Shown here one piece after another: positions 49,433-56,101 of a stretch of DNA of 64,000 nt (positions are counted from its first letter, which is position 1; every line of letters starts with the position of its first letter). The stretch covers positions 1 through 64,000 of the forward strand of contig JAFYKZ010000020.1 in NCBI GenBank assembly GCA_017537365.1. The letters run 5' to 3'. The position numbers and the translations under genes are program-made. A model generated the notes under the pieces. That model was not told where the DNA came from, did not search any database, and saw only the letters and a list, made by a program, of their open reading frames with translations. The stretch comes from Clostridia bacterium. Lineage in GTDB: Bacteria > Bacillota > Clostridia > Oscillospirales > Acutalibacteraceae.

Positions 49433-49567
49433 AGCCTTCTCCAGCGGAGAAGGTGGCAAAACCTTGGTTTTGACGGATGAGGAGAGCATTTTTCCAATAA
49501 AAATTCAAAATATTTATTATTCTCCTCATCCACCGCAAGCGGTCCCCCTCCATTTACAAAGGAGGCT
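49433..49567. repeat. composite repeat flanking the peptide cluster, left copy
   Basis: Two blocks separated by about 40 AT-rich bases: CCTTCTCCAGCGGAGAAGG with GGCAAAACCTTGGTTTTGAC and GGATGAGGAG, then CTCCTCATCCACCGCAAGCG with GTCCCCCTCC and a short GGAGG end. The same two blocks occur in inverse order and orientation at 55958-56101, so the elements form an inverted pair around the 49.8-55.8 kb cluster. Confidence 0.75.
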
Positions 49568-49842: not shown

Positions 49843-51957
49843 ATGAAAAAGATTCTCAAAAAGTCGCTTGCATGTATGCTAGCTGCTATCCTTTGCTTAA
49901 CAGCATGTGTTGGCGCTATGGCATCTGTTAGCGCAGAAGACGCTATCACCTATACAATTGATGACGTTGCAATTAACCAGGGTGGAAGCGATACGATTAA
50001 CGTTACAATTAGCAATTTTGCTGATGTAGCAGGTCTTATCGCTGAGATTACACTTCCTGATGCTGTTGATAGCATTGGTGATGTAAAACTCAATAACACT
50101 GCTGAGCTCGTTAAGATGACAGATGACGAGCCAGGTCATTATGTTCTTAATGGTAAAACCATTAAATTTGTTGGTTTATTTAACTCTCTCGATGAGTTCA
50201 AACTTGGCGATGTAGTAAATACTTTAACTATCAACATCGATGTAACTGTTGTTGATGAAGCTAGAGAAGCTGCACCAATTACAGCTGTTTTCGCTGCAGG
50301 TGATTTCAACGAAGGTACTCTCGCTGTTAATGGTACTGATGGTACTTTAACTGTTAAAGCAGTTTGCAAGCATGAAGATGTAACAACTGTTAAAGAAAAT
50401 GAAGTTGCTGCTACTTGCTATGCAGAAGGTTCTTATGACGAAGTTGTTAAATGTTCATGTGGCCATGTAGTTTCAAGCACACATAAAACTATTGCGAAAA
50501 TAGCTCATACTCCTGCTGAGGCAGTTGTAGAAAACAATGTTGATGCAACTTGCTATGCAGAAGGTTCTTATGATTCAGTTGTATACTGCTCAGTAGAAGC
50601 ATGTAAGGCTGAAATTTCTCGTACACCTGTTACTGTTGAAAAGACTGAGCACACTCCTGCTGAAGCTGTTGTTGAAAACAATGTTGATGCAACTTGTTAT
50701 AAAGAAGGTTCTTATGATTCAGTAGTTTACTGTTCAGTTGAAGCATGCAAACATGAAATTTCTCGTACAAATGTTCCTGTTGAGAAAATAGCTCATACTC
50801 CTGCTGAGGCAGTAGAAGAGAACAGAGTAGAAGCTCAACCTGGCGTTGCAGGTTCTTATGATTCAGTTGTATACTGCTCAGTAGTAGGATGCGGAGCTGA
50901 GATTTCTAGAACTCCTAACGAAATTCCTGCTCTTCCTGTAGAGCCAGAAGGTCCTGTTGTTGATAGCAACTTAGTATTCTACAGAACTTCTCTTGCTTAC
51001 GGTAATAGCTCATTAGAGTTTAACTTCCGTATCGCAACTACTGTTTTAGACCTTTATAACAATGTAGAAGTTGTTATTGTTCCTCAGAAGTATGATATGA
51101 CTACTCTTAACCTTGTTGAAAATCCTGCTGAAATAGTTATTGCTAAGGCTGACCTTGCAGCTGCAGGTTCAAAATATAAGCAGTATACATATACTGATAT
51201 TCAGCTTTATGAATTAGGTTTAAATATCGACTATATGTTAAGAGCTTATGATGCAAACGGCGAACTCGTAGCTGTTTCCGAGACATTCAAAACCTCTATC
51301 GCTAAATTGTTGGCAGACAATGCTGCTGATCAAACAAAGAGTGCTGCTTATAGAACATTATGTGTTGATACATTGGTTGTTTGCGACGAGGTTATGAAGA
51401 ATGTTGCTAAAAGCTATGAAGATTCTGATTTGGCAGACGCTGTAGCTGCTGGTTCTGTACTTGATGGCGTAGATACTTCTATAGCAACTCAAACTATTGA
51501 GGAGTGCAATACTGTAAATGAATTCGTATCTTATGATCCTGAATTCCTTCAAGAAACTTCTACTCATCAAATTCGTTCTTCTGTAGCTATCGGTAAGGTT
51601 CCTTATATCAACTTCCGTGTTAAAGACCAAAAGAATGCTTTTGATCTTAACAAGTTAGAGGTTAATGTTAAGTATACATCTAAGGATAGTGCCGGCGAGC
51701 ATCCTTATAACAAGACTTTCTCTGGTTCTGCCCTTACTGACGGTACATTTATCAACTGCACATTTGATGAAGTAGGTTTCCACGATAGTGATAAGGATAT
51801 TCTCTTTACCGTATCCTATGACGGTGAAAAGAAATGCGAATGGACTTATAGCATTGAAACATATCTTGATGGTTTGAAAGATAGTACAAATACGGGTGCG
51901 CAAATGACTGCTTTGATTAAGTTAGGTCAATCATTCCGTACCTATCAAGGACTATAA
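49843..51957 (+). CDS. large secreted protein with cohesin-like domain and four Cys repeats
   Basis: A 704-residue exported protein. The signal peptide spans about 1-32; cleavage after SVSA is likely, although LTAC at 19-22 could also serve as a lipobox. Residues 35-175 form a beta-rich domain resembling cohesins (ITYTIDDVAINQGGSDTINV-like start). Residues 174-362 are four repeats of about 46 residues built on HTPAEAV-ENxVxATC-GSYDSVVYCS-C-EISRT; each of the first three has three or four cysteines, and the last has lost one (ATC to AQP). The C-terminal 330 residues are not recognised. Repeats of this kind occur in many surface proteins of gut Firmicutes. Codon use (more ATC, CTC, GCT and GATC sites) differs from most of the window and matches the small peptide gene downstream. 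Whether it belongs to the peptide pathway or only neighbours it is unknown. Confidence 0.85.
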   Translation: MKKILKKSLACMLAAILCLTACVGAMASVSAEDAITYTIDDVAINQGGSDTINVTISNFADVAGLIAEITLPDAVDSIGDVKLNNTAELVKMTDDEPGHYVLNGKTIKFVGLFNSLDEFKLGDVVNTLTINIDVTVVDEAREAAPITAVFAAGDFNEGTLAVNGTDGTLTVKAVCKHEDVTTVKENEVAATCYAEGSYDEVVKCSCGHVVSSTHKTIAKIAHTPAEAVVENNVDATCYAEGSYDSVVYCSVEACKAEISRTPVTVEKTEHTPAEAVVENNVDATCYKEGSYDSVVYCSVEACKHEISRTNVPVEKIAHTPAEAVEENRVEAQPGVAGSYDSVVYCSVVGCGAEISRTPNEIPALPVEPEGPVVDSNLVFYRTSLAYGNSSLEFNFRIATTVLDLYNNVEVVIVPQKYDMTTLNLVENPAEIVIAKADLAAAGSKYKQYTYTDIQLYELGLNIDYMLRAYDANGELVAVSETFKTSIAKLLADNAADQTKSAAYRTLCVDTLVVCDEVMKNVAKSYEDSDLADAVAAGSVLDGVDTSIATQTIEECNTVNEFVSYDPEFLQETSTHQIRSSVAIGKVPYINFRVKDQKNAFDLNKLEVNVKYTSKDSAGEHPYNKTFSGSALTDGTFINCTFDEVGFHDSDKDILFTVSYDGEKKCEWTYSIETYLDGLKDSTNTGAQMTALIKLGQSFRTYQGL

Positions 51958-51995
51958 TTTAATTTATTTAGTTTATATGTGGTGGTGAATTTGAA

Positions 51996-52115
51996 ATGAA
52001 GGCTTACTTAGAGATCGTTGAATTAAAGAACGATATTATTACTACTTCTGGTGAAGAAGAGTGCTGTGACTACGGATGTCCTACCGATGGTGATCAGATG
52101 GAAGGTATCTGGTAA
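51996..52115 (+). CDS. candidate RiPP precursor peptide (39 aa, Cys-rich C-terminus)
   Basis: A 39-residue peptide. The first 18-19 residues read as a leader (MKAYLEIVELKNDIITTSG) and the rest as an acidic core with C23, C24 and C28 (EEECCDYGCPTDGDQMEGIW). Short peptides with a conserved VELKNDxITTSG-like leader are something I have seen beside radical SAM genes in gut clostridia, but I know no formal family name. It has a GGTGGTGAA stretch upstream, strongly favoured codons, and an intrinsic terminator after the stop, before a radical SAM/SPASM gene. That order would give much more peptide mRNA than enzyme mRNA. It is 38 bases after the large secreted-protein gene. Modification, if any, would likely involve the cysteines (thioether links as in sactipeptides or ranthipeptides); this is inference. 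Confidence 0.75.
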   Translation: MKAYLEIVELKNDIITTSGEEECCDYGCPTDGDQMEGIW

Positions 52116-52136
52116 TAATTATCAGGCTAAAAATAG

Positions 52137-52164
52137 AAAGCTCCCTTACGGGAGCTTTTGTTTT
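52137..52164 (+). terminator. terminator between precursor gene and maturase gene
   Basis: A 9-bp stem AAAGCTCCC/GGGAGCTTT with a TTAC loop and a TTGTTTT tail, 21 bases past the peptide stop. Confidence 0.85.
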
Positions 52165-52248
52165 AGCATATAATTTTAGAGACGACTGTCTTTACGGTAA
52201 ATATTTTTAAATTAAATTCATTATAAATAATTTATATAGGAGCGCATT

Positions 52249-53622
52249 ATGAAAAAGATATATGAACAAACGGCTATCATTAAGCAACTTTTAAGCAAAC
52301 AGGTTATTAACCAAAACAAAAAATATCGCAGATTTTTTTATTTAACCGAATGCCCGATAGATGATGGCACTATTGTTTATAACACAGTAACTTATGAGTT
52401 GTTGTTTTTAAGCAATGAAGAAAGAGCTTTGTTAAATAATCCTGATATAAGCGATCCTATTGTTAAATATTTAATTGAGAGTTATTATTTAGTGCCTGAA
52501 GATTTTGAGGATAAAAAATTAGCTTCTCAGGTTATTAATACCCGATTACAAGTGCAAAGTTTATATAATCCCGTTCCTTTGAGTTATTTTGTTATTTTAA
52601 CAACAACAGGGTGCAATGCTCGTTGTTTTTATTGCTTTGAGGCGGGCGCAAAGGTTTCTAATATGACCGAGCAAACGGCGCATGATGTTGCCGATTTTAT
52701 AGAGCGAAAAGGCGCAAAGAAAATAAAGCTTCAATGGTTTGGCGGAGAGCCGCTATGCAATATGAAAGCCATTGATATTATTTCAAAAGATTTAAAAGAA
52801 AAAAACATTGATTATTCTGCTAAAATGGTTACAAACGGTTATTTGCTTGATGAAGAGGCGCTTAAAAAAGCTGTTGACCTCTGGAAACTTGATACCCTGC
52901 AAATAACCCTTGACGGAACCGAAGAGGTTTATAACAAGATTAAAAATTATGTATATAAAGATGTAAGCAGTCCTTTTATAAAGGTTTTAAATAATATAGA
53001 AAATGCTTTGAAAGCAGGAATACAGGTTAATATCCGTCTTAATATGGATGAGCATAATGCCGAAGACCTTTTTGATTTATCAAAAATATTGGTTGAAAGA
53101 TTTAGCAAATATAATAAATGCTACATTTATGTTGTAAGGCTTTTTGAGGATACCTGTTCAGAAATTAAAAACCGCGAGGTTAAAGACAGGCATAAGCTAA
53201 TAGAAAACTCTGTAAGACTTCAAAACTTTATTAATGAGAATATGCCTACTATTGAAATTGACTATTTGCCGAAGTCGTTCAGCAAGCCCAACACCTGTAT
53301 GGCTTGCAGTGATAGTGCGGTTATGATAGTGCCGGACGGACATTTGGGCAAATGCGAGCATTTTGTTGACAGTGATTTTTACGGCAGTATTTACAGCGAT
53401 GAAATTGATATTGCAAAAATTCAAAAATACAAAGAACGTAAATTCGTATCCGAAAAATGTGAGGATTGCGAATTGAGGTCTTTATGTGTTGCTTTGAAAT
53501 GTTGCACAGGTGTTCCTGATCATTGCGACGAGGTTGACAAAATAGCTATTAAAAACCGAATTGATACAAAACTTCGAAATATTTATAATGCATTTATAAA
53601 GCTTGAAAAAGAAAAGCAATAG
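52249..53622 (+). CDS. radical SAM/SPASM peptide maturase
   Basis: A 457-residue enzyme. The radical SAM cluster motif is TGCNARCFYC (C122, C126, C129), followed by FGGEPLCN (SAM binding) near 164 and VTNGYLL near 194. The C-terminal SPASM region holds C350, C353, C369, C404, C407, C413, C418, C419 and C426, enough for two auxiliary [4Fe-4S] clusters. The first 110 residues include YNTVTYELLFLSNEE, which resembles the recognition-type N-terminus seen in peptide maturases. Such enzymes install thioether or carbon-carbon links in peptides. The neighbouring 39-residue peptide is the obvious substrate and the PqqD-like protein the likely peptide-binding partner. AGGAG lies before the ATG. Confidence 0.9.
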   Translation: MKKIYEQTAIIKQLLSKQVINQNKKYRRFFYLTECPIDDGTIVYNTVTYELLFLSNEERALLNNPDISDPIVKYLIESYYLVPEDFEDKKLASQVINTRLQVQSLYNPVPLSYFVILTTTGCNARCFYCFEAGAKVSNMTEQTAHDVADFIERKGAKKIKLQWFGGEPLCNMKAIDIISKDLKEKNIDYSAKMVTNGYLLDEEALKKAVDLWKLDTLQITLDGTEEVYNKIKNYVYKDVSSPFIKVLNNIENALKAGIQVNIRLNMDEHNAEDLFDLSKILVERFSKYNKCYIYVVRLFEDTCSEIKNREVKDRHKLIENSVRLQNFINENMPTIEIDYLPKSFSKPNTCMACSDSAVMIVPDGHLGKCEHFVDSDFYGSIYSDEIDIAKIQKYKERKFVSEKCEDCELRSLCVALKCCTGVPDHCDEVDKIAIKNRIDTKLRNIYNAFIKLEKEKQ

Positions 53623-53632
53623 GTGAAAGTTA

Positions 53633-54373
53633 ATGGATATTACTAAATGCAAAATAGCAGATTTTAATATGGCATTTGAAACGGACATTAAAAATCTTTC
53701 TAAGATTTTTAGAGAGTATGTTTCTGATTTTTCAAAAGAGGATGTTAAAATCTGCATTACAGATAACGATATAGAGCTTGAAAAAAAACTGGCGGAGGAT
53801 GGTTTCGATACTAAATATGCCACCACCTACAAGCTTTCTGCTATTCACCGCAAAATTGGTGATTGGTTGCCTTCGCAAAAAGCCTTTGTGCTTCATTCGG
53901 CTTGCTTTGATGTTGACGGGGTTGGAGTTGCTTTCGCGGCGCATAGTGGCACAGGTAAATCAACTCATATGATGCTATGGCAGAAGTTGTTGGGCGATAG
54001 AATGACGGTTGTTAACGGAGACAAACCGATAGTAAGGTTTTTTGATAACGAGTCTGATAAAGCTTACGCTTATGGCTCGCCCTGGATGGGGAAGGAAAAA
54101 TTAGGTTCTAATATGAAAACTCAGTTAAAGCATATTTGTTTTATTGAGCGCGCAAAAGAAAATTCTTGCGAGCCTATCCCAACCGAAGAGGCGATTGCTA
54201 AAATTTTTAAACAGGTTTATATGCCGACAGACCCTATTGCGACTTCAAAAACAGCCGAGCATATAAACAGGCTTTTAAATTCCTGTAAGCTTTGGAGAAT
54301 CAGATGCAATATGGAGTTGGATGCGGCAGAAGTTGCGTATGGCACTATTTTTCGCCAGGAAGGCGAAAAATAG
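53633..54373 (+). CDS. HPr kinase-like P-loop protein of the peptide cluster
   Basis: A 246-residue protein related to the C-terminal kinase domain of HPr kinase/phosphorylase. The P-loop HSGTGKST is at 104-111, NGDKP at 128-132 and GSPWMGK at 148-154; the N-terminal 80 residues are a separate small domain. It lacks the N-terminal domain of true HprK and no HPr gene is nearby. Related proteins recur in RiPP clusters with PqqD-type proteins, where some phosphorylate the peptide. The core peptide here has Thr30 and Tyr26 as possible acceptors, and Ser18, Thr16-17 if the leader is included. It starts 10 bases after the maturase with AGGTGAAAG. The stop codon touches the first base of a palindromic repeat. 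Confidence 0.82.
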   Translation: MDITKCKIADFNMAFETDIKNLSKIFREYVSDFSKEDVKICITDNDIELEKKLAEDGFDTKYATTYKLSAIHRKIGDWLPSQKAFVLHSACFDVDGVGVAFAAHSGTGKSTHMMLWQKLLGDRMTVVNGDKPIVRFFDNESDKAYAYGSPWMGKEKLGSNMKTQLKHICFIERAKENSCEPIPTEEAIAKIFKQVYMPTDPIATSKTAEHINRLLNSCKLWRIRCNMELDAAEVAYGTIFRQEGEK

Positions 54374-54507
54374 AATGCAAAGTGCAAAATGCTAAATGCA
54401 AAATTAAATTCAAAATGCAAAGTGCTAAATTATAGTGCTCCGTTAGGTGCGGATATATGTCGCTTGCGACACATTAATTTAGCACTTTGCATTTAGCGTT
54501 TTGCATT
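54374..54507. repeat. palindromic repeat, left copy flanking the four-helix-bundle gene
   Basis: Begins at the base after the upstream stop codon. Outer arms are built from AATGCAAAGTGC and GCTAAAT words; inner part is ATAGTGCTCCGTTAGG, then TGTCGC-TT-GCGACA. The right arm ATTTAGCACTTTGCATTTAG-CGTTTTGCATT pairs with the left. From about 54419 on it is near-identical to the copy at 54886-54988 (one substitution, one 2-base indel); the left arm has an extra duplicated segment. Confidence 0.85.
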
Positions 54508-54532
54508 ATTATTTACAGTGGGAGATATTTAA

Positions 54533-54886
54533 ATGAAAAATAATATTATCGAAACCAAAAGTTTTGATTTTGCTGTTAGAATTGTGAATTTATATAAGTA
54601 TCTCACGGAAATAAAAAAAGAATTTGTTTTGTCAAAACAGTTGCTTAGAAGTGGCACAAGTATCGGTGCAAATATTTCAGAAGCCGAACGAGGACAGTCT
54701 AAAGCGGATTTTTATGCTAAAATGAGTATTGCATTAAAAGAAGCAAATGAAACATATTATTGGATACGTTTGTTATATCAAACTGAGTATTTAAATCAAG
54801 AGCAATTTGAAAGTATCGAAAATAATATAAAAGAAATTATTGCTCTTTTAATGTCTATTTGCAAATCTACACAGAAATTTAAATAA
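54533..54886 (+). CDS. four-helix bundle protein (IVS/S23 family)
   Basis: A 117-residue all-helical protein with the family hallmark LLRSGTSIGANISEAERGQS near 40-60, then DFYAKMSIALKEANETYYWI. Relatives are encoded inside rRNA intervening sequences, as stand-alone genes in many bacteria, and as the Avd accessory protein of diversity-generating retroelements. They form basic pentamers that bind nucleic acid in the Avd case; the role of the stand-alone proteins is unknown. No reverse transcriptase or template repeat is in the window. The gene lies between direct copies of a ~100-bp palindrome and splits the peptide cluster, which suggests that gene plus repeat arrived as a unit. GGGAG precedes the ATG. 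Confidence 0.88.
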   Translation: MKNNIIETKSFDFAVRIVNLYKYLTEIKKEFVLSKQLLRSGTSIGANISEAERGQSKADFYAKMSIALKEANETYYWIRLLYQTEYLNQEQFESIENNIKEIIALLMSICKSTQKFK

Positions 54887-54988
54887 ATGCAAAGTGCAAA
54901 ATGCTAAATTATAGTGCTCCGTTAGGCGCGGATATATATGTCGCTTGCGACACATTAATTTAGCACTTTGCATTTAGCGTTTTGCATT
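54886..54988. repeat. palindromic repeat, right copy flanking the four-helix-bundle gene
   Basis: 103 bp, starting on the last base of the four-helix-bundle stop codon. Same sequence and same orientation as 54374-54507. The promoter of the PqqD-like gene starts 8 bases after it. Confidence 0.85.
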
Positions 54989-54996
54989 AATATCGT

Positions 54997-55025
54997 TTGA
55001 CAATATGTTTGTTATGTGTTAATAT
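54997..55025 (+). promoter_or_regulatory. promoter of the pqqD-like and peptidase genes
   Basis: TTGACA (54997-55002), 17-base spacer, TAATAT (55020-55025), about 33 bases before the ATG. It lets the distal genes be expressed despite the inserted repeat unit. Confidence 0.7.
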
Positions 55026-55058
55026 ATTTAGGTAAATAAAATTTGCAGGTGATAGTAT

Positions 55059-55325
55059 ATGAAACTTAAATATGATTTTATAGTTAATGAGGTTGCAGAC
55101 CAATTTGTTGCGGTTGCTGTTGGGGATGCGCTTAGTGAATTTAACGGTTTTGTTAAAATGAATGATGTTGGTGCATCTATTTTCGATAAGCTTAAAAACG
55201 ATATTTCTATGGAAGACCTTATTGCTTTAATGGCTAAGGAATATCCTGATGAAACAGTTGAGACCATAACTGATTGTGTTACAGGATTTATTGACGGTCT
55301 TAAAGAAAAGGATTTAATTGCTTAA
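55059..55325 (+). CDS. PqqD-family peptide recognition protein
   Basis: An 88-residue PqqD-like winged-helix protein, the fold that acts as RiPP recognition element by binding leader peptides. Characteristic parts are FNGFVKMNDVGASIFDKLK near 29-48 (usual form LNxxGxxIWxLL), SMEDLIALMAKEYPDE and a final VTGFIDGLKEKDLI helix. It probably delivers the peptide at 51996 to the radical SAM enzyme. The start has CAGGTGAT upstream. The last codons overlap the possible TTG start of the peptidase gene. Confidence 0.88.
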   Translation: MKLKYDFIVNEVADQFVAVAVGDALSEFNGFVKMNDVGASIFDKLKNDISMEDLIALMAKEYPDETVETITDCVTGFIDGLKEKDLIA

Positions 55326-55815
55326 TATGGCTAGCCGAAAAATGACCGAGCTTAGTATTAAAAATACTGAGCTTATAAAATCGAAAATTGAGGAAGACGG
55401 TCTGGTTTATTCTCTCATTAAGGGCGTTAGCATGCAACCAATGCTTAAACAGGGCAGGGATATTGTTGTTATCGAGGCGGTTTCCTTAGATGATATTAAG
55501 ATTAATGACTGTTTGCTTTACAAGCGCGAAAATTATGATTTTTTGCCGCTTCACAGAGTGCTGAAAATCAAGGGTGAAACCTTAATCATTCGCGGTGATA
55601 ATACATACACGCTTGAATATGTGCCGAAGGATTATGTTGTAGGTCGTCTTAAAGCTTTTTACCGCAAAGGAAAATATTATGACTGCGAAAAAAGTTTTAA
55701 ATATAAAATTTATGTATTTTATAACCGAGCAACCTATTTGCCGAGGTGTTTTTGGAAAAAGGGTTTAAGACCTATACTTTCTAAAGTTTATCATTCGGTG
55801 TTTAAAAGAAAATAA
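55318..55815 (+). CDS. S24/S26-family serine peptidase of the peptide cluster
   Basis: A 165-residue peptidase with GVSMQPML (nucleophile Ser38), GRDIVVIE, LPLHRVLKI and IRGDNTY motifs. The HRV in place of a catalytic Lys is the SipW/eukaryotic-type signal-peptidase arrangement with a Ser-His dyad. No clear membrane helix is seen, unlike ordinary signal peptidases. By position it is the best candidate for removing the leader of the precursor peptide. Start is uncertain: TTG 55318 has AAGG six bases upstream and overlaps the pqqD-like gene; ATG 55327 is possible but its site is about 15 bases away. A terminator follows, closing the cluster. No exporter gene is present. Confidence 0.82.
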   Translation: MLNMASRKMTELSIKNTELIKSKIEEDGLVYSLIKGVSMQPMLKQGRDIVVIEAVSLDDIKINDCLLYKRENYDFLPLHRVLKIKGETLIIRGDNTYTLEYVPKDYVVGRLKAFYRKGKYYDCEKSFKYKIYVFYNRATYLPRCFWKKGLRPILSKVYHSVFKRK

Positions 55816-55957: not shown

Positions 55958-56101
55958 AGCTTTCTCCTCAGGAGAAGGGGGACCGCTTGCGGTGGATGAG
56001 GTGATTACTAATTAATCTAAGTTATATTGGGTGATATAAAAAGTTGCTCTCCTCATCCGTCAAAACCGTTGGTTTTGCCACCTTCTCCGCTGGAGAAGGC
56101 T
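55958..56101. repeat. composite repeat flanking the peptide cluster, right copy
   Basis: Inverted copy of 49433-49567: a GGGGGACCGCTTGCGGTGGA block with TGAGG, about 40 AT-rich bases, then CTCCTCATCCGTCAAAACCG, TTGGTTTTGCCACC and CTTCTCCGCTGGAGAAGG. Block identity is high; the spacer differs. Confidence 0.75.

Follow-up and report, generated by a model that had tools for sequence, protein, structure and literature searches.

A radical SAM/SPASM maturase in a probable LPP-type RiPP operon of a Clostridia bacterium

Locus and gene content

The locus described here lies at positions 49843-55815 of contig JAFYKZ010000020.1 from Clostridia bacterium (assembly GCA_017537365.1; Acutalibacteraceae), probably an inhabitant of the animal gut, and was analysed within the first 64,000 nucleotides of that contig (the window). 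It is probably an operon for a ribosomally synthesized and post-translationally modified peptide (RiPP) of the linear polyphosphorylated peptide (LPP) type, to which a radical S-adenosylmethionine (SAM)/SPASM maturase has been added. An earlier note on this DNA had named, all with the same orientation, a 39-residue cysteine peptide, a radical SAM/SPASM enzyme, an HPrK-like protein, a PqqD-like protein and a SipW-type peptidase; all of these genes are present on the + strand in the order given below, every reading frame being whole, while the list itself proved incomplete, as it left out a gene of the 23S rRNA intervening sequence protein (IVP) type at 54533-54886. The parts of the operon are:

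49843-51957, + strand: secreted surface-type protein of 704 residues, with a signal-peptide-like start and three 48-residue repeats
51996-52115, + strand: probable LPP-type precursor peptide of 39 residues, with Ser18 as likely phosphate site and C23, C24 and C28 as likely thioether sites
52137-52158, + strand: RNA hairpin, attenuator- or terminator-like, between the peptide and the enzyme genes
52249-53622, + strand: radical SAM/SPASM maturase, whose structure model has an N-terminal domain resembling a RiPP recognition element (RRE)
53633-54373, + strand: HPrK-like kinase (LppK-like), with P-loop and motifs and weak model matches
55059-55325, + strand: discrete RRE of the PqqD family (LppB-like), with a match to PF05402
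55318-55815, + strand: signal peptidase-like leader peptidase of the SipW/archaeal type (LppS-like)

The hairpin 3' of the peptide gene folds much more strongly than shuffled sequences (z -4.8).

Precursor peptide and leader

The closest relative outside the window's genome was found in a Clostridia metagenome-assembled genome from water deer cecum (locus L034), with a radical SAM enzyme 84% identical to that of the window and the peptide MKAYLEVVELKKDIITTSGDECCDYGCPTDGDQMEGIW. In a genome of the class-level draw (G705, locus L201), the peptide MKAYLEIVELKNDIVTTSTECCDFECPTDLDQMQGNY stands at the same place, with radical SAM and kinase genes around it and a protein whose end resembles that of the window's secreted protein. 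Since both peptides share the window core, the three loci have all three cysteines and the PTDxDQM stretch in common, and the peptide is conserved together with its enzymes in these two other genomes.

Small open reading frames adjacent to the kinase share a leader of roughly YxxPEMEIxxFxxEDVITTSG, followed by variable, mostly acidic ends. The set compared comprised 49 distinct leader peptides from about 100 fetched loci, a selection from all matches; 20 of the regions matched by the leader profile were fetched, mostly chosen away from known kinase loci. An acceptor-like Ser is kept in 47/50 leader peptides, with Asp five residues before it in 45/50, Pro 16 before it in 35/50 and, among the 47 peptides of sufficient length, Tyr at 19 residues before it in 38; the [YWF]xxP pattern occurs in 36/50. 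Because this pattern of Ser, Asp, Tyr and Pro is kept, and the Tyr of the published LPP consensus stands 18 residues before its Ser, the Ser of ITTSG (Ser18 in the window) is by analogy probably the phosphate site and not part of the leader. The IITTSG motif, taken in the earlier note as the end of the leader, would thus include the phosphate acceptor, and the precursor, which that note could not place, is probably of the LPP type, its conserved Ser standing mostly 19 residues after Tyr in this family versus 18 in the LPP consensus.

Kinase, recognition element and peptidase

Relatives of the kinase are present in 135 of 300 family genomes (E 1e-8), and matches to the leader profile in 53 of the 300 (E 0.01). 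The two occur together: the kinase was found in 52/53 genomes with leader peptides versus 83/247 others (Fisher 4e-20, kinship ignored), with a profile that was seeded from kinase loci and a genome search that was blind to position. In a phylum-wide draw, leader matches were obtained in 3/338 genomes, the window's own among them, using a profile of shorter length and a more stringent threshold, so that the contrast with the family is only rough. At 41 kinase loci (40 fetched around the kinase, plus L034), some of them stopping at contig edges, a PqqD gene was seen in 28 and the peptidase in 25.

The kinase keeps the P-loop and the invariant motifs, so that the cluster contains the HPrK-like kinase characteristic of LPP systems; assignment to an HPr-rel-A type system was rejected, HprK_rel_A scoring 16 bits against a cut-off of 200. 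Against PDB sequences, the kinase profile gave only a bare HPr kinase match at 0.1, and single kinase, RRE and peptidase sequences returned nothing useful. The RRE profile matched LppB (9x8z, E 5e-6), the entry in which LppB is seen with its leader (PMC13381572), and PbaB1 (9x90, E 3e-6). The peptidase matched TIGR02228 at E 7e-10, under the cut-off of that model, with Ser, His and Asp invariant in 12/12 sequences.

Radical SAM maturase and peptide cysteines

The maturase has the general features of radical SAM/SPASM peptide maturases: C122, C126 and C129 (CxxxCxxC) and six C-terminal cysteines, which by their spacing we take to be SPASM ligands, are invariant in 9/9 maturases. Its structure model can be aligned with CteB and TigE over a range that takes in the N-terminal domain, and this fold suggests an RRE-like domain at the N-terminus; by sequence, comparing profiles with the PqqD alignment gave no match (probability 0.12%). 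The enzyme lies under the cut-off of every NCBIfam model shown, with 82-132 bits against cut-offs of 340-600 for models of the ranthipeptide/SCIFF type; TIGR04463, CefB, FlmE/OhkG, Clo7bot and PapB were each rejected, as all listed scores of the window maturase and eight homologues are far under the curated cut-offs.

The radical SAM clade was delimited at 480 bits on a purpose-built profile. Under this value lie the enzymes of L085, L086-L089 and L116, together with those of the kinase loci L054, L066, L067 and L073. L086-L089 and L116 have no match to kinase, PqqD or peptidase. Among the four kinase loci only L066 shows leader peptides, both free of Cys and counted among the 40 peptides without a maturase, and its radical SAM gene lies on the opposite strand from them. 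L090 duplicates locus L035 and was left uncounted, and L115 begins at a contig edge with no peptide visible.

A Cys at or beyond the ITTS motif is present in 9/9 peptides adjacent to a gene of this radical SAM clade (8 loci) and in 0/40 others (Fisher 5e-10 over 49 distinct leader peptides, ignoring kinship), so that cysteines occur only beside the maturase; the L201 peptide is a tenth adjacent case with Cys. All nine peptides, and that of L201 too, retain the acceptor-like Ser. On a tree of 22 kinases the radical SAM/Cys state changes at least three times, with the kinase apart from the radical SAM gene in three genomes, and the independence of the correlation is limited because there are only three such changes. 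Judged from the sequences, no other observation argues as well as this correlation for an action of the enzyme on these cysteines, and it makes the predicted substrate of the maturase directly testable. The CX3D motif is that of PapB; the present cores show no clear pattern of this kind that would point to the residues joined.

Kinase and RRE are present in all 8 radical SAM genomes searched, and kinase and radical SAM genes stand together on one strand in the window, L034, L035, L043, L114 and L201. In genome G121, the radical SAM gene lies within a complete LPP set including an ABC exporter and a PF14907 nucleoside triphosphate (NTP) transferase; matches to PF14907 were found in L041, L043, L059 and L114.

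Secreted protein pairing and maturation in trans

The gene upstream of the peptide is commonly one for a secreted-like protein, as defined by a simple hydrophobicity rule. Counting only complete upstream genes, a secreted-like gene on the same strand precedes 31/39 peptides, a count that repeats some genes with two peptides behind one, versus 92/358 genes in those loci, a background of greedy open reading frames of at least 90 residues, some of which are not real genes. Counted as distinct upstream genes, 26/33 are secreted-like (Fisher 2e-11), and among genes of at least 300 residues the figures are 24/29 upstream and 54/170 overall. A further 6 peptides have a truncated upstream gene, and 4 have no visible one. 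The pairing hints at a possible action of the phosphopeptide on the surface protein or together with it. Identity of the secreted protein's tail with the peptide core was considered as a general rule and rejected (44 pairs, permutation p 0.01). In single loci tails look alike: at L066:7686-8902 the secreted protein ends in DEGWSDWWTPEY and the neighbouring peptide in DKGWSDWWTPEF, and at L043 the ends are IELPIITV (secreted protein) and IELPIIPVK (peptide).

No kinase lies in the fetched stretch of 25/49 leader peptides, a share that is no estimate, as loci were often picked apart from the kinase and contig edges cut some of the stretches short. The window's genome has only one kinase of this family, and on its contig 4 (L160:7412-7892) a second ITTSG peptide, free of Cys and without maturation genes, follows a secreted protein of 106 residues that has an acidic tail, looks dockerin-like on inspection and has no Pfam match. 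Because of these kinase-free peptides, the contig 4 pair and the single kinase, a single maturation set probably acts in trans on several peptides.

Insertion, repeats and neighbouring clusters

Between the kinase and RRE genes, and around the operon as a whole, the following features were located:

54402-54512, + strand: palindromic repeat, left copy
54533-54886, + strand: four-helix bundle protein of the 23S rRNA IVP family, above cut-off for TIGR02436 and PF05635
54881-54993, + strand: palindromic repeat, right copy
49433-49549, + strand: inverted repeat bracketing the operon, left copy, with 31 nt at 100%
55976-56101, - strand: inverted repeat bracketing the operon, right copy

The two palindromic repeats of about 110 nt are near-identical, and their two halves are 91% and 98% alike; judging by this arrangement, the IVP-type gene appears to be an insertion that stands outside the pathway. 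A related palindrome is also present on contig 25 of the same genome. An 18-mer from the perfectly complementary 31-nt core of the bracketing repeat occurs 2 times in the 64-kb window; these repeats perhaps mark a movable cassette or are a common intergenic repeat.

Elsewhere in the window's genome, contig 31 (L211:8067-10002) carries a lone PqqD gene with an LppD-like ABC exporter, 34% identical to the exporter of L043. A RiPP-like cluster on contig 18 (L085) has a PF14907 transferase and an ABC exporter and, by eye, a SPASM-type radical SAM enzyme and a subtilase-like protein. In another genome (G254, L090:13833-14966) a sugar-transfer ATP-grasp protein (PF14397) is encoded between kinase and peptidase, which hints at a polysaccharide link.

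Interpretation and alternatives

We consider it likely that a radical SAM/SPASM maturase has been added here to a RiPP operon of the LPP type. This agrees with the earlier proposal of a RiPP operon whose peptide, on sequence grounds, is plausibly both cross-linked and phosphorylated, with the SipW-type peptidase as the cutting enzyme. Neither of the findings that would, by the earlier note, have spoken against that proposal was obtained, as peptide and enzymes are conserved together and the maturase stays under the cut-offs of the named families shown. The discrete RRE would bind the leader strand, the radical SAM enzyme with its own RRE-like N-terminal domain would form thioethers from C23, C24 and C28, and the kinase would add one or more phosphates to Ser18. 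Cleavage by the peptidase would fall immediately ahead of Ser18, at about I15-T17, and remove the leader. The acidic peptide would leave the cell through an ABC exporter whose gene lies elsewhere, the PqqD and ABC pair of contig 31 being the candidate, so that it may end up beside the secreted protein encoded in front.

Several observations weigh against this assignment. The kinase has only weak matches and exceeds the cut-off of no family model, the lasso RRE TbiB1 is a better match to the RRE profile (1e-8) than LppB is, the leader profile found no match to the LppA leader chain in the PDB, and the window peptide has the Ser and lacks the YxxP part of the leader. On the operon's contig (contig 19) there is no match to a PF14907 transferase, three being present elsewhere in the genome, nor to an MsbA-like exporter at E 1e-15, as had been stated of the exporter in the earlier note. 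In L112 and L113 the radical SAM gene and its peptide lie apart from kinase and RRE. Finally, enzyme and Cys agree in all 22 rows of the kinase tree, and the three independent pairs agree by construction, a number too small to reach significance (sign test p 0.25).

The alternative that survives best, which we regard as unlikely, is that the two chemistries act on separate molecules, with the Cys peptide as substrate of the radical SAM enzyme and other peptides, for example the Cys-free one from contig 4, served in trans by kinase, RRE and peptidase. That second peptide without adjacent machinery, the selection-biased share of kinase-free leader peptides, the loci L112 and L113, the RRE-like domain of the maturase model and the missing YxxP of the window peptide are what it would lead one to expect; the acceptor-like Ser kept in every radical SAM-linked peptide and the six loci with kinase and maturase on one strand are not. 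That the locus represents a RiPP class unrelated to LPP, with similar enzymes recruited independently, is improbable: the leader consensus is indeed unlike YxxPxVLxHQxIxFETxxS and without an LppA match, and the best PDB match of the RRE is a lasso RRE, but the same four kinds of protein are combined, relatives add PF14907 and ABC partners, the RRE profile does match LppB, and the Tyr-to-Ser spacing is similar. A decayed or silent operon, with kinase and RRE split by the repeat-bracketed four-helix insertion at 54402-54993, is very improbable, as frames are whole, conserved motifs are kept and a promoter-like TTGACA-17-TAATAT follows the insertion at 54997-55025 (scan total 32 versus 22.9 in shuffles, little excess).

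Beyond the LPP-type operon with added maturase, we tentatively propose, as a possibility short of an even chance, a surface co-peptide system. In it, secreted proteins throughout this bacterial family would be encoded with an ITTSG peptide downstream, a single set of kinase, RRE and peptidase would mature many of these peptides in trans, and some branches would have gained a radical SAM enzyme that makes thioether-linked phosphopeptides, a hybrid RiPP chemistry of which our searches found no description.

Comparison with known systems

The system is not undescribed in its basic parts, as had been supposed: kinase, discrete RRE, SipW-type peptidase and short leader peptide together make up the LPP system. 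As given in the main text of its description, this consists of LppA, LppK (HprK), LppB (RRE), LppS (SipW-like), LppN (NTP transferase) and LppD (MsbA-like), with the leader consensus YxxPxVLxHQxIxFETxxS; the kinase adds several phosphates to core Ser3, and LppS cuts after FET when the peptide is presented by LppB, roles that were demonstrated experimentally except for LppN, which was without effect (Popov et al., Nat Commun 2026, PMC13381572). The role of the LPP product is stated there as unknown (May 2026), and the main text contains none of the terms 'secreted', 'radical SAM', 'SPASM' or 'Clostrid', the supplements lying outside the term search (PMC13381572).

The window shares with LPP the HPrK-like kinase, the discrete PqqD-type RRE, the SipW-like leader peptidase and a short precursor with variable core, and its relatives add the ABC exporter and NTP transferase. 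It differs in the radical SAM/SPASM enzyme, the Cys core and the secreted protein in front, in a leader of the type EMEIxxF..EDVITTSG instead of VLxHQxIxFET, and in that exporter and transferase do not adjoin the operon.

The lasso peptides paeninodin and pseudomycoidin also share an HPrK-like kinase, an RRE and a nucleotidyltransferase (PMC8498205), the last represented here by PF14907 in relatives. The window peptidase, in contrast, is signal-peptidase-like, and a lasso peptide was rejected as an explanation, the seven locus proteins including neither a macrolactam cyclase of the Asn synthetase type nor a B2 protease; the cyclase search was confined to the locus. With the maturases CteB, TIGR04463, CefB, Clo7bot and PapB, which we take to be of the ranthipeptide/SCIFF type, the window shares a SPASM enzyme with an N-terminal RRE-like domain and a Cys-bearing peptide just upstream of the maturase, whereas its precursor leader and partner genes are of the LPP type.

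Searches of open-licence PubMed Central (PMC) articles found no report of phosphate addition and radical thioether cross-links on one peptide, and the radical SAM branch, if the interpretation is true, would within those searches be the first case of a radical thioether and HPrK-type phosphorylation on one small peptide. Each chemistry is known singly; the novelty would lie in a radical SAM enzyme added to an LPP-type operon and in a peptide tied to a secreted protein.

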